A stretch of 64,000 nt of DNA from Paenibacillus sp. FSL H8-0048. GTDB taxonomy: Bacteria; Bacillota; Bacilli; Paenibacillales; Paenibacillaceae. The notes below the pieces were generated by a model. It ran no database searches. It was not told the DNA's origin and saw only the letters and a program-made list of their open reading frames with translations. Position numbers and translations under genes: made by a program. How positions within the stretch are numbered: the first letter of the stretch is position 1; each line of letters starts with the position of its first letter. Of the stretch, positions 12,108-21,050 are shown one piece after another. The stretch is from the NCBI RefSeq assembly GCF_038002825.1, contig NZ_JBBODF010000001.1, forward strand, positions 1,054,001 to 1,118,000, in the 5' to 3' direction.

Positions 12108-12122
12108 TGATAATGGTTATCA
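12108..12122 (+). promoter_or_regulatory. Fur box upstream of the AraC/lipoprotein frame
   Basis: TGATAATGGTTATCA matches the Bacillus 7-1-7 Fur consensus TGATAATNATTATCA with one mismatch and sits 45 bp before the ATG. It predicts iron repression of the downstream gene. Confidence 0.75.
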
Positions 12123-12166
12123 TTTAAAATGAGAAGTAGACAGATAACGGAGGGGAATCAAGCATC

Positions 12167-14110
12167 ATGCACATCAGCAATCAATTATTGCTTTGGGATC
12201 AGGCTGCAATTAAGCTGCTCGATATCCGGCAGAAGGAGTTAGCGCGAGGCGAAGTTCTTCCTCCATTTATAATACCTGCCAATCTATTTTTGCTTTCGGT
12301 ACAAGGAAGCGCACAAGTTCAGGCAGACCAGGCTGAGTTTGCTTGTACAGGATTTCAACTTTTGCATTGCGGCGAAGGGACAACCCTAAGCATCGTTCCC
12401 GTAAACGGCAAATTTATTTACTATATCATTTATTACAAATCCTTGCTTCATGAAGCGAATCCTTTTCAAGAGCAGTATTGTTTCAGCCCTAAGGCTCCTC
12501 TTTCACTGTATAACAAAATTCAGCAGATGCATCAGAAATGGGATCAGCCGGAAGAGCGTCTTCATGTAAAAGCACTTTTTTACCAGTTCGTTCATCTGAC
12601 ATTAAAGGAATTGCGCCTGCAAGAGCATGAGACTGAGGGCAGAACCACTTCTGTTGCTGTGCAGGTAATCACTTATATCCAGGAGCATTATGCGGAACCT
12701 ATTACCTTAGATTCACTTGCGGAAGTGTTCAAATTCAGTGCTTATCACCTGTCATCCTTATTTAAGGAGCATACCGGCATCAGTCCGATAGATTACTTAA
12801 TCCGCTACCGGCTTGACCTTGCATCAGAGCTTCTAATGACAACAAATGCTTCTGTCGGGGAAATTGCGGCGAGCGTCGGGTATAAAGACGTGTATTATTT
12901 CAGCAGGATTTATAAAAAACGAAAGGGTGTATCCCCTGCTCATCATAGAAATAGGGAGCTGAAGCAGCATAAAGTTGCTGAAAGTCCATTAAACATCCCC
13001 ACATCCTCTATTTCTGATACGGGTGCTGATCTGTATATTAATAATGATAATCATTATCATAATACGGACAAAGGGGATATACATATGTTTAAATCAAAAC
13101 CAAGCAGATCTGTGGCCATGGCTGCAATCCTGCTGTGCGGCTCCATGCTGATCAGTGCTTGCTCCAACGGGACGAACACAGCGGCGAAGGATTCAAGCAG
13201 CGGGAACAATAACGTAAATCAGGCAACTCCGGCTGCCACACAAGAAAGTCCGAAGACGCGGATCGTAACCACTCCAAGAGGAGACATTGAAGTGCCCGCA
13301 GAGCCGGTAAAAGTCGCGGCAGACCAATATATGGGCCATTTATTGAAACTGGGCATTGTCCCTGTCGGGGCAAGAACGTTCATGCTCGACGAAGGCTGGA
13401 TGGACAAGGCGGAGATTCCCCAAGAAACACTCGAAAGAATCGAAGATCTGGGGGAATTCCCGATGAATCTGGAGAAATTAACCATGCTGGAGCCAGACCT
13501 CATTATCGGTTCCATCGAAGATTACGTTGACCAATACGAGAAAATTGGCACCACTGTTTTTCTGCCATACTGGGAAGAGTTGTCAACCGCCGGACCACTT
13601 GATAAATTCAGAAGCGTAGCCGCGATATTCGGAAAAGAGCAGCAGGCAGAGGATTGGATTGCGGAATACGAACAGAAGGTTGTTGAAGCAAAGTCAAAGG
13701 TATTTAACGTCATTAAGGAAGGGGAGACGGTATCGATCGTTCAGTTTGCCGAAAAAACAGTATATGTGTTAGCAGCCACGGGCGGAAATTATGGTTCCTC
13801 CACTATCTACGAAATGCTGCAGCTGCCTCCAACAGAAAGTGCCTTACATATGAAAGAGGGGTTCGAATCGATCTCACTTGAGGTGCTTCCTGAATATTTA
13901 GGTGATTATATCTTTGTATATAATGGCGATGCTGAGATTACGAGCCAAGCAATGGAAAGTGATATATGGAAAAGTGTGCCTGCCGTGAAGAAGGGGAAAG
14001 TATTTTTATACGGGGATAATTATCATGATGAATTTGTCATGGAGGACCCCTATTCTTTGGAGCAGCAGCTGGATACGGTTGTGAACTTGTTACTGGGGAC
14101 GGATAAATAA
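12167..14110 (+). CDS. AraC regulator joined in frame to a siderophore-binding lipoprotein
   Basis: A single uninterrupted 647-residue frame. Residues 1-155 form an AraC-type sensing domain and about 165-265 the two helix-turn-helix motifs (TLDSLAEVFKFSAYHLSS and VGEIAASVGYKDVYYFSRIYKK). After a ~40-residue linker, M307 begins a lipoprotein signal peptide with lipobox LISAC (Cys332), followed by a FhuD/FecB-type substrate-binding domain to the end. Bacillus Btr is an AraC protein with a siderophore-binding domain, but it lacks a membrane segment. If translated whole, this protein would have the DNA-binding part inside and the binding domain outside the membrane. A Fur box and ribosome binding site precede M307, so the lipoprotein can also be made alone. 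No permease genes are adjacent. Confidence 0.8.
   Translation: MHISNQLLLWDQAAIKLLDIRQKELARGEVLPPFIIPANLFLLSVQGSAQVQADQAEFACTGFQLLHCGEGTTLSIVPVNGKFIYYIIYYKSLLHEANPFQEQYCFSPKAPLSLYNKIQQMHQKWDQPEERLHVKALFYQFVHLTLKELRLQEHETEGRTTSVAVQVITYIQEHYAEPITLDSLAEVFKFSAYHLSSLFKEHTGISPIDYLIRYRLDLASELLMTTNASVGEIAASVGYKDVYYFSRIYKKRKGVSPAHHRNRELKQHKVAESPLNIPTSSISDTGADLYINNDNHYHNTDKGDIHMFKSKPSRSVAMAAILLCGSMLISACSNGTNTAAKDSSSGNNNVNQATPAATQESPKTRIVTTPRGDIEVPAEPVKVAADQYMGHLLKLGIVPVGARTFMLDEGWMDKAEIPQETLERIEDLGEFPMNLEKLTMLEPDLIIGSIEDYVDQYEKIGTTVFLPYWEELSTAGPLDKFRSVAAIFGKEQQAEDWIAEYEQKVVEAKSKVFNVIKEGETVSIVQFAEKTVYVLAATGGNYGSSTIYEMLQLPPTESALHMKEGFESISLEVLPEYLGDYIFVYNGDAEITSQAMESDIWKSVPAVKKGKVFLYGDNYHDEFVMEDPYSLEQQLDTVVNLLLGTDK
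13045..13059 (+). promoter_or_regulatory. Perfect Fur box inside the coding frame, before the lipoprotein start
   Basis: TGATAATCATTATCA is an exact match to the 7-1-7 Fur consensus; the palindrome extends to 13044-13060. It lies 26 bp before the internal ATG at 13085, inside the linker of the long AraC frame. It implies an iron-controlled internal promoter for the binding protein. Confidence 0.85.
13085..14110 (+). CDS. Iron-siderophore ABC transporter substrate-binding lipoprotein (internal start)
   Basis: Alternative product from the internal ATG: 341 residues, the normal length for this family. It has a Lys-rich N-region, a hydrophobic core and lipobox LISAC with Cys26, so it would be lipid-anchored outside the membrane. 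The FecB/FhuD-type bilobal domain starts near KTRIVTTPRGDIEVP and includes LEKLTMLEPDLIIGS. AAAGGGG lies about 8 nt upstream of the ATG, and the perfect Fur box precedes it. It would deliver a ferric siderophore to an ABC importer encoded elsewhere. Confidence 0.8.
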   Translation: MFKSKPSRSVAMAAILLCGSMLISACSNGTNTAAKDSSSGNNNVNQATPAATQESPKTRIVTTPRGDIEVPAEPVKVAADQYMGHLLKLGIVPVGARTFMLDEGWMDKAEIPQETLERIEDLGEFPMNLEKLTMLEPDLIIGSIEDYVDQYEKIGTTVFLPYWEELSTAGPLDKFRSVAAIFGKEQQAEDWIAEYEQKVVEAKSKVFNVIKEGETVSIVQFAEKTVYVLAATGGNYGSSTIYEMLQLPPTESALHMKEGFESISLEVLPEYLGDYIFVYNGDAEITSQAMESDIWKSVPAVKKGKVFLYGDNYHDEFVMEDPYSLEQQLDTVVNLLLGTDK

Positions 14111-17293: not shown

Positions 17294-17596
17294 ATCCAAG
17301 TGCGAGCTCCGGCCAACCATCAGGCTTACGTGGCGCGCACGCCACTCCCGGTCCAATTGTAATCGGTTTTCCGACTACATTCCGTCCGTGCGCCGCTCCC
17401 GGTCCAATTGTGATCGGTTTTCCGACTACATTTGGCGCGCACGCCGCTCCCGGTCCAATTGTGATCGGTTTTTCGACTACATTTCGTCCGTGCGCCACTC
17501 CCGGTCCAATTGTAATCGGTTTTCCGACTACATTCCGTCCGTGCGCCGCTCCCGGTCCAATTGTGATCGGTTTTCCGACTACATTTGGCGCGCACG

Positions 17597-19009
17597 GGTA
17601 GCGTCAAGAAGTTTGTGTAAGAGAGTAGAAGTACCTCCCCCGGGTTACGGGTTGGGGTGCAGTGTTTCTGGGGGGAGGGGGAACCCCGACCCCCAGAAAC
17701 TGGATTTCTCTGCTACGCCTCTTCCGGTGCGGGTAAAGAGGGGTAGCGTGTTTCGAATAGCTCTTTTAGCTTCTTTTTAACGGCATCCATGCCAAAGCCT
17801 TGGGCGACCCGCCCTGCATGACGTTCATTGTATTCCAGCATCTCCAGGTACACGATTTTCTCTGCCGCATCCATGTTCGTCAGACTGTTCATCGGTTTCA
17901 GACGCTTGCGGATTTCCTTGTTCATCCGTTCGATGGGGTTCGACGTGTAGATCGCTTTACGGATCGATTCCGGATACTTGTAGAACGTCAGGAGTGTGGA
18001 TAACTGTTCCTCCCAGGACCTCATTTCCTTCGGATATAGCTTGTTCCACTTCGCTTTGACCGTATCAAAGTTAGCCCGGGCTACCACTTCATCCGGTGCG
18101 GTATATACGGTTTTCAACGCTTCAAGGACATCAGTTTTGTGCTCCATCCGGATTTTAGGGAACGTGGCCCGCACTTTGTGCACTACGCAATGCTGTACAT
18201 CTGCCTGAGGATAGGTCTCTTTAAACGCCGCATCCAGCCCCGGTAGTCCGTCAAACACACCCAGCAGGACTTCCTGCGCTCCGCGGTCGTACAGGTCTTT
18301 GAGTACCTCCCGCCAGCCATTCGAACTCTCTTGGCCGCCCACGTAAAACCCGAGAATTTGACGCTGTCCCTCCTCGTCAATCCCCATCGCAAAGTAGACC
18401 ACTTCGCCACGGACCGTGCCCCGTTTCAGCTTCACGTACAGCCCATCCAAGTAGATCACGGAGTACCGTTTGCTCAGGGGCCGTTTCTGCCACTGGTGGA
18501 TATCGTCCAGCACCGTAGCCGTAATATTGCTGACCGTGGTGGGGGAGTAGTGGCTGCCAAACATACTTTCAATGAACCGGGCCACATCCCGCGTGCCCAT
18601 GCCCGATTTATACATTTGGATGACAGCCTCTTCTAACCATCCGTCCCGCCGCTGGTACGGCTCAAACATCTGCGTTTGGAAAAGGCTTTGGCGGTCCCGG
18701 GGCACCTGAAGATCCTCGATATGGCCGTATTTCGTGTGCAAGTCTCGCGTATAATAGCCGTTGCGACTATTACTGGCACCCGATTCTTCACTGTCCATAA
18801 ACCCCTGGATTTCGGCGCGCAACAGGCGTTCCATGTTGTCTTTCACAAAATCTTTAACAAGTTTTTCAAATAGATTATTCAGAGAACTTTCGGGTAAAAT
18901 ATTCATTGGTAGGGTTCCTCCTTGGTGGTTTCGCAATCCCGAGGATACCCTACTTTTTTGGTGTCTGACTAGACTCCAAATCTTGGTACACAACTTACTT
19001 TACGCCATC
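17597..19009 (-). mobile_element. IS256-family insertion sequence, complete
   Basis: 1413 bp. Imperfect terminal inverted repeats: left end GGTAGCGTCAAGAAGTTTG, right end (reverse complement) GATGGCGTAAAGTAAGTTG. A perfect 8-bp target duplication CGCGCACG flanks it at 17589-17596 and 19010-19017. Removing the element and one duplication restores a normal junction between repeat copies 5 and 6. It encodes one intact transposase; a GTTTCTGGGGG/CCCCCAGAAAC hairpin at 17664-17700 follows the gene. Intact ends and duplication suggest a recent insertion. Confidence 0.95.
17713..18906 (-). CDS. IS256 family (Mutator-type) transposase
   Basis: 397 residues, full family length. The DDE catalytic triad is visible as D154 in IYLDGLYVKL, D219 in GVFDGLPGLD and E326 in TSNPIERMNKE. 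ATG at 18906 has AAGGAGG 11 nt upstream; the frame continues upstream to near the right inverted repeat, but that part is not expected to be translated. No frameshift or internal stop, so it is probably active. Confidence 0.95.
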   Translation of the reverse strand: MNILPESSLNNLFEKLVKDFVKDNMERLLRAEIQGFMDSEESGASNSRNGYYTRDLHTKYGHIEDLQVPRDRQSLFQTQMFEPYQRRDGWLEEAVIQMYKSGMGTRDVARFIESMFGSHYSPTTVSNITATVLDDIHQWQKRPLSKRYSVIYLDGLYVKLKRGTVRGEVVYFAMGIDEEGQRQILGFYVGGQESSNGWREVLKDLYDRGAQEVLLGVFDGLPGLDAAFKETYPQADVQHCVVHKVRATFPKIRMEHKTDVLEALKTVYTAPDEVVARANFDTVKAKWNKLYPKEMRSWEEQLSTLLTFYKYPESIRKAIYTSNPIERMNKEIRKRLKPMNSLTNMDAAEKIVYLEMLEYNERHAGRVAQGFGMDAVKKKLKELFETRYPSLPAPEEA

Positions 19010-20630: not shown

Positions 20631-21050
20631 GGATGCGACGGATGCCACCCACTTATTTTCATTCCTGGGGGTGACAAGGTCTCTGTCTTGTCATGCCTGT
20701 TTTTCGACTACATTTCGTCCGTGCGCCACTCCCGGTCCAATTGTGGTCGGTTTTTCGACTACATTTGGCGCGCACGCCACTCCCGGTCCAATTGTAATCG
20801 GTTTTCCGACTACATTCCGTCCGTGCGCCGCTCCCGGTCCAATTGTGGTCGGTTTTTCGACTACATTTGGCTCGCACGCCGCTCCCGGTCCAATTGTGAT
20901 CGGTTTTTCGACTACATTTCGTCCGTGCGCCACTCCCGGTCCAATTGTGATCGGTTTTCCGACTACATTCCGTCCGTGCGCCGCTCCCGGTCCAATTGTG
21001 GTCGGTTTTTCGACTACAACCAGCTAACAGGCCCATCCCCCCTGGCAGCC

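Follow-up and report, generated by a model that had tools for sequence, protein, structure and literature searches.

An AraC-type regulator and a siderophore-binding lipoprotein encoded in one Paenibacillus reading frame with a predicted internal promoter

Introduction

At araBAD, the AraC protein uses the tandem direct half-sites I1 and I2, which are about two helical turns apart and overlap the -35 element. An AraC-type domain is combined with a FeuA-like sensory domain in Btr (YbbB) of Bacillus subtilis, the regulator of feuABC (PMC9609785). Among the membrane-integrated one-component regulators of the ToxR/CadC family, CadC signals intact (PMC5936718). Binding proteins of the FhuD type, such as FtsB, YfiY and FhuD2, are lipoproteins.

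No reported ratio of such binding-protein genes to siderophore gene clusters is higher than that of Paenibacillus, 29.43 (PMC13293324), which makes receptor-specific induction a real question in this genus. Table 1 of the same paper only counts HTH_18 together with Peripla_BP_2, and our literature search found no account of a fusion between an AraC regulator and an exported binding protein. Here we report a gene of this design in Paenibacillus sp. FSL H8-0048. It lies in a window of 64,000 nucleotides, by which we mean the whole stretch of DNA analysed. Dozens of Paenibacillus relatives share the fusion design, which appears to be undescribed.

A continuous frame from regulator to receptor

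A single frame on the forward strand covers nt 12167–14110 of the window and comprises 647 codons with no stop. The frame and its parts are as follows.

12167–14110, + strand: composite gene for a 647-aa protein, AraC regulator, linker, lipoprotein signal helix and FhuD-type siderophore-binding domain (open frame, Pfam, AlphaFold2; continuous in relatives)
12149–12156, + strand: Shine-Dalgarno site of the full-length protein, GGAGGGGA (sequence)
12716–12955, + strand: AraC-type DNA-binding domain, HTH_18, residues 184–263 (Pfam; pN/pS of the AraC part 0.28)
13109–13162, + strand: signal/transmembrane helix, residues 315–331, and lipobox ISA-Cys332 (AlphaFold2; lipobox in 73 of 73 relatives analysed)
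13247–14107, + strand: FhuD-type siderophore-binding domain with invariant Glu436 and Glu572 (Pfam, alignment, fold)

In the Pfam assignment, HTH_18 is followed by Peripla_BP_2 at residues 434–618. AlphaFold2, run with 32 aligned sequences, gives confident models for the AraC part (cupin plus HTH, residues about 14–268) and for the two-lobed binding domain (residues about 361–645). The linker, residues 269–314, is predicted to be disordered, and one helix, 315–331, ends at the lipobox ISAC, whose Cys332 is invariant in the diverse family alignment A1. The predicted arrangement is an N-terminal DNA-binding domain, one helix, and then the C-terminal domain. Across family pairs the linker has a pN/pS of 0.79, compared with 0.28 for the AraC part, indicating little constraint on the protein sequence of the linker as such.

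The closest relatives of the binding domain in sequence and fold are the ferrichrome/hydroxamate receptors, namely the FhuD-fold protein BSU3320, FtsB, YfiY and FhuD2. It shares with FhuD-like lipoproteins the Peripla_BP_2 fold, a signal peptide with lipobox, and a conserved glutamate in each lobe, and it probably binds a ferri-siderophore. Glu436 and Glu572 are located at what we take to be the positions where such receptors dock on FecCD permeases.

In some relatives the fusion gene adjoins a FecCD pair and lies directly before the permeases; Paenibacillus selenitireducens carries two tandem copies directly before such a pair. Two tandem fusion genes are found near a FecCD pair in loci L098 (6000–12144) and L101 (1622–13218). 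In other relatives, an ABC exporter-like gene and a gene for a pyridine-nucleotide oxidoreductase, perhaps a siderophore reductase, lie beside the fusion gene. Both AraC designs are adjacent in L144 (4597–9368), where a fusion gene and a gene of the Btr-like AraC-binding-domain type are divergently oriented, and the latter precedes a free lipoprotein gene.

The window gene stands alone, with no permease gene beside it. Its genome has seven fusion genes, the six others being full-length with 31–38% identity to the window gene, and five strong FecCD matches, none of which is near any of the seven. The fusions of this genome are thus probably receptors sharing permeases. Elsewhere in the window, two 51-bp tandem-repeat arrays with related units (17340–17585 and 20699–21018) flank a transposase-like frame (17713–18993); a similar repeat-coded stretch occurs at L144 17395–18228, elsewhere in the genome.

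Predicted promoter elements within the coding sequence

The linker is free of stops in the frame of the gene. Among 71 relatives no stop occurs in 2877 in-frame codons, versus 92 of 2806 and 404 of 2806 in the two other frames. The lengths of the linker segments fall into 7 and 6 classes, all of one phase, and indels are always whole codons. A weakly conserved peptide, SSI ... RYI ... DNHYQ ... KGD ... M, runs through the linker, and its motifs are predicted DNA elements. SSI(V) would correspond to the -35 region of a promoter, here called P2, and YI, YS or YN to a -10 hexamer TATATT, TATAGT or TATAAT; DNHYQ would be a Fur box, KGD a Shine-Dalgarno site, and M the start of a short product. In the window copy these are:

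13034–13039, + strand: -10 element of P2, TATATT, in frame as Tyr-Ile (-10-like hexamer conserved in relatives)
13045–13059, + strand: perfect Fur box of P2, TGATAATCATTATCA, 14/14, in-frame part of DNHYH (7-1-7 motif; synonymous rate 0.05)
13070–13076, + strand: Shine-Dalgarno site of the short product, AAAGGGG, in frame as Lys-Gly (conserved in relatives)
13085–14110, + strand: predicted short product, a 341-aa siderophore-binding lipoprotein (internal ATG at 13085–13087, codon 307)

A -10-like hexamer with at least 5/6 matches is present in 64 of the 71 relatives, versus 7% of AraC coding control stretches, and relatives aligned on it display a TTG-type -35 at 17 nt. The P2 -35 of the window copy is poor, and a generic promoter consensus scan did not call P2 in this copy. 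No terminator was found ahead of P2 on the + strand. The internal start column holds ATG in 57, GTG in 10, TTG in 3 and another codon in 3 of 73 relatives, hence a start codon in 70. Every Val or Leu codon in this column is a start codon, yet GTG makes up only 30% of the Val codons and TTG 17% of the Leu codons in these genes.

The synonymous rate has a sharp valley in this region. Over 20 non-overlapping pairs it is about 0.6 along the rest of the gene, falls to 0.16–0.32 between codons -24 and +11 relative to the Fur box, and is lowest, 0.05, at the box itself. The constrained stretch reaches 70 nt upstream of the P2 Fur box, which is more than a promoter alone needs. Protein conservation was considered as the main cause of the linker conservation and rejected, because the synonymous sites are frozen and because the linker carries a repeat (see below) whose period, 22 nt, cannot be divided by three.

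The internal Fur box is kept in the same codon phase in 71 of 73 relatives; L087 and L089 are without it and retain the ribosome site, the internal ATG and the outer Fur box. The 7.46-Mb genome contains 10 perfect Fur boxes, 4 of them inside frames of the fusion family, and a reversed-pattern control gives 0. Chance occurrence of the internal box is rejected on this count and on its conservation. The outer promoter, P1, has a Fur box as well:

12108–12122, + strand: Fur box of P1, TGATAATGGTTATCA, 13/14, upstream of the first ATG (one mismatch; conserved in relatives)

Of the 73 relatives, 52 carry a Fur box matching at 12/14 or more no further than 160 nt upstream of the full-length start, with a shuffled null of 0.1%. 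Both promoters therefore carry the 7-1-7 box of the Fur regulon (P1 13/14, P2 14/14), and repression by iron is predicted for both. The 22-nt repeat is unspecific at P1 (z = 3.2, like offset 26), and no clear match to the P2 element was found upstream of the full-length start. P1 thus looks controlled by Fur only, and P2 would be both Fur-controlled and AraC-activated.

The first-pass annotation had read this frame as an uninterrupted fusion with a perfect Fur box and a ribosome site just before the signal peptide. The 647 open codons, the conservation of the fusion in relatives, and the conservation of box and ribosome site together with an internal start all bear it out. Its idea of two products from one locus also appears right, as the internal Fur box, ribosome site and start are conserved. 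It had counted a promoter only at 12108 as a contrary finding; the boxes at 12108 and 13045 are both conserved family features, so that both starts have Fur boxes and there is no either/or choice of promoter. To this reading we add the -35 and -10 elements, the predicted operator, the Fur control common to both promoters, and the distribution of the family.

Proposed mechanism

We propose that the gene is a self-contained, self-inducing siderophore-receptor cassette, with one frame and two nested products. Taken as a whole, this model is on balance rather probable. The Fur-repressed P1 would yield the 647-aa protein, with the AraC domain in the cytoplasm, one signal/transmembrane helix, and the FhuD-type domain outside. 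P2, in frame within the linker, would yield the 341-aa lipoprotein receptor alone. Its elements would be a TATATT-type -10 behind a weak -35, a Fur box where transcription is expected to start, a ribosome site and a start codon, and Fur would shut it when iron is plentiful. Lack of iron would open P1 and give a few membrane-bound regulator-receptors. In the presence of the right siderophore these would switch on P2, with the AraC part of the long product activating it through the 22-nt tandem repeat, whose end meets the P2 -35, much as AraC does at araBAD, and the bulk of the receptor would follow. With P1 Fur-repressed and P2 AraC-activated, low iron would thus prime a little sensor-regulator, and the siderophore would then give bulk receptor. 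Binding of the repeat by the AraC part of its own gene, membrane insertion of the long product, and the ferri-siderophore as inducer are inferred parts of the model.

The long form may work intact or after cleavage at the lipobox. As the lipobox is conserved, cleavage of the long form is a serious alternative that would part the regulator from the receptor. The long product would then be a polyprotein, exported, lipidated and cut by signal peptidase II into the receptor and an AraC-transmembrane stub, which RasP or another intramembrane protease might then release. In that case regulation would report receptor export and not direct siderophore binding by an intact sensor. A lipobox in all relatives and a linker predicted to be disordered are consistent with such processing. 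However, the short product also needs the lipobox and would alone keep it conserved, so that its conservation is no proof of long-form cleavage, and a long N-terminal domain ahead of a lipobox is unusual. We consider a polyprotein unlikely.

The self-inducing cassette may have a wider meaning. The fusions might form a class of membrane-anchored AraC sensors, each sensing one external ferri-siderophore by using the transport receptor as the sensor domain, and each acting mainly in cis on the in-frame operator. Membrane insertion during transcription could hold the regulator near its own gene and so keep paralogues separate. This extension is offered tentatively, and we would sooner expect it to need revision than to stand as worded.

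A tandem repeat as the predicted operator

To the left of the P2 -10, the linkers of the family contain a sequence that is directly repeated at an interval of exactly 22 nt (best 12-mer agreement, mean 8.0 versus 5.13; z = 17.5). No comparable repeat was found at other offsets from 12 to 39. Other windows of the same genes give agreements of 4.6–5.8, so the repeat is absent elsewhere in the gene. In 25 named loci, which overlap the earlier set by at least one (L090 is L022), the agreement is 8.80 at offset 22 versus 4.5–5.8 at nearby offsets. Since 22 is not a multiple of three, this is no protein repeat. Counted from the start of the -10, the half-sites cover -59 to -44 and -37 to -22, and the second one reaches the -35, which is the position taken by an AraC-type activator. 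In the window they map as follows:

12975–12990, + strand: upstream half-site of the predicted AraC operator, TTGCTGAAAGTCCATT (22-nt repeat, mapped relative to the -10; weak here)
12997–13012, + strand: downstream half-site of the predicted AraC operator, CCCCACATCCTCTATT, touching the -35 (22-nt repeat)

The window copy is among the weaker ones, its half-sites agreeing at 7/16. Among 24 diverged representatives, the two half-sites of the same gene agree at 9.54 of 16 positions versus 7.76 for half-sites of different genes (0 of 10,000 permutations). Halves that are alike within a gene and unlike between paralogues are expected if the AraC part of each gene reads its own pair. The pattern suggests that the 22-nt repeat is a candidate operator of the gene's own regulator, an assignment that is well supported by the sequences.

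Another regulator might bind the repeat instead, with the AraC domain acting elsewhere. AraC regulators can act on distant promoters, and the weakness of the repeat in the window copy would agree with such an arrangement. It would not account for half-sites that match within a gene and differ between paralogues, nor for a spacing and a -35 overlap that fit AraC proteins. The general repeat pattern has 9 matches genome-wide (4 in the control), and 3 of the 9 fall inside fusion linkers, which also speaks against a different regulator. We hold this explanation to be improbable.

Spread and continuity of the fusion

Dozens of full-length continuous relatives were found, down to about 30% identity. 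All of the 36 named loci, some of which come from genomes already in the first relative set, are fused with the box in frame; their genera are Paenibacillus, Cohnella and Lysinibacillus. Paenibacillus silagei is one species with an orthologue. Members with E ≤ 1e-60 occur in only 3 of 199 genomes sampled evenly across the phylum, all three in the window's own family. The Lysinibacillus members (L100, L102, L103, L117, L118 and L130), which are outside the Paenibacillus family, suggest horizontal transfer. The divergence of the AraC part is correlated with that of the binding domain (r = 0.67, Mantel 0 of 999).

Because the first search favours continuous alignments, a search with the AraC part only was performed. 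In 12 genomes the AraC-only profile gave 55 members above a clear score gap (248 versus 222 bits). Intact fusions of 634–726 aa account for 53 of them; of the two exceptions, one is interrupted by a TAG in its AraC part and the other is broken within the binding domain. A free regulator followed by a separate lipoprotein gene was seen in none of the 55. Below the gap come Btr-like proteins of about 581–609 residues and then solo AraC proteins.

Three family members are broken: L035 has a TAG in its AraC part, L039 a TGA at the HTH, and L140 a disrupted frame in its binding domain; in L035 and L039 the linker motif and the entire lipoprotein part are still open. The Brevibacillus loci L126 and L129 were considered as a split ancestor and rejected, being remnants without regulator or signal peptide. 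The binding-domain remnants cover 5992–6735 in L126 and 6001–6647 in L129, the latter being divided between frames as well.

Eight members of the sister, Btr-like AraC-binding-domain group have a linker with neither a signal-like segment nor a Fur box, in keeping with the contrast to cytoplasmic Btr that had been drawn earlier. These sister proteins occur in the same genomes and are presumably cytoplasmic, and Btr itself has a FeuA-like sensory domain (PMC9609785). The long product of the window gene might not be exported and might sense the imported siderophore inside the cell, only the short product being a lipoprotein. Yet all relatives keep in the long product a hydrophobic helix preceded by basic residues, and this helix should serve as an N-in signal anchor. 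A cytoplasmic sensor is therefore, in our judgement, quite improbable.

The first-pass annotation had named a stop codon in the linker as a finding that would speak against the fusion; none is seen in the homologous linkers. Loss of a stop codon or an assembly error is rejected on the strength of the continuous homologues. That two ordinary neighbour genes lost their stop without consequence, selection acting only on the regulatory DNA between them, would suit a linker constrained at the DNA level and weakly at the protein level, but is very improbable: none of the 2877 linker codons is a stop, indels stay in phase even among deeply diverged paralogues, and 53 of 55 members are intact with none separated. 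Purifying selection acts on the AraC part, and since there is no stop between it and the receptor, a working regulator must start as a fusion, an argument of logic and not of measurement. The conserved fused frame with its embedded, predicted promoter is strongly supported by the sequence.

Significance and comparison with known systems

If the self-inducing cassette is real, it would be a transmembrane one-component system whose sensor is a transport receptor domain; one gene would give two forms, its codons doubling as promoter, operators and ribosome site. The sensing by Gram-positive bacteria of external siderophores made by others becomes directly testable with it, and so does the induction of paralogous receptors one at a time. 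It also calls for caution, as genes with an AraC part can hide transport receptors.

Like Btr, the window protein has an AraC HTH and then a siderophore-binding domain (Peripla_BP_2) in one protein, and its best NCBIfam match is the Btr model NF049932, with the best stretch on the AraC part. The score, however, is 94.9 bits against a cut-off of 900. Unlike Btr, the window protein has an export signal between the two domains (helix 315–331, lipobox Cys332), and its binding domain is of the exported lipoprotein type. The window protein is not Btr.

It does not belong to the ToxR family either, since it has no winged helix-turn-helix; its DNA-binding domain is HTH_18, of the AraC type. It further differs from ToxR and CadC in that its sensor is a transport receptor with a lipobox, in the nested short product, and in its Gram-positive host. 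It may nevertheless work like Btr or like ToxR. With FhuD, FtsB, YfiY and FhuD2 the receptor part shares fold, sequence and the conserved Glu pair, whereas the window receptor is predicted to occur in two settings, by itself and as a regulator's outer part. The predicted operator resembles that of AraC at araBAD in its tandem direct half-sites reaching the -35, and differs from it in lying inside the regulator's own coding frame, with a 22-nt period and a Fur box downstream.
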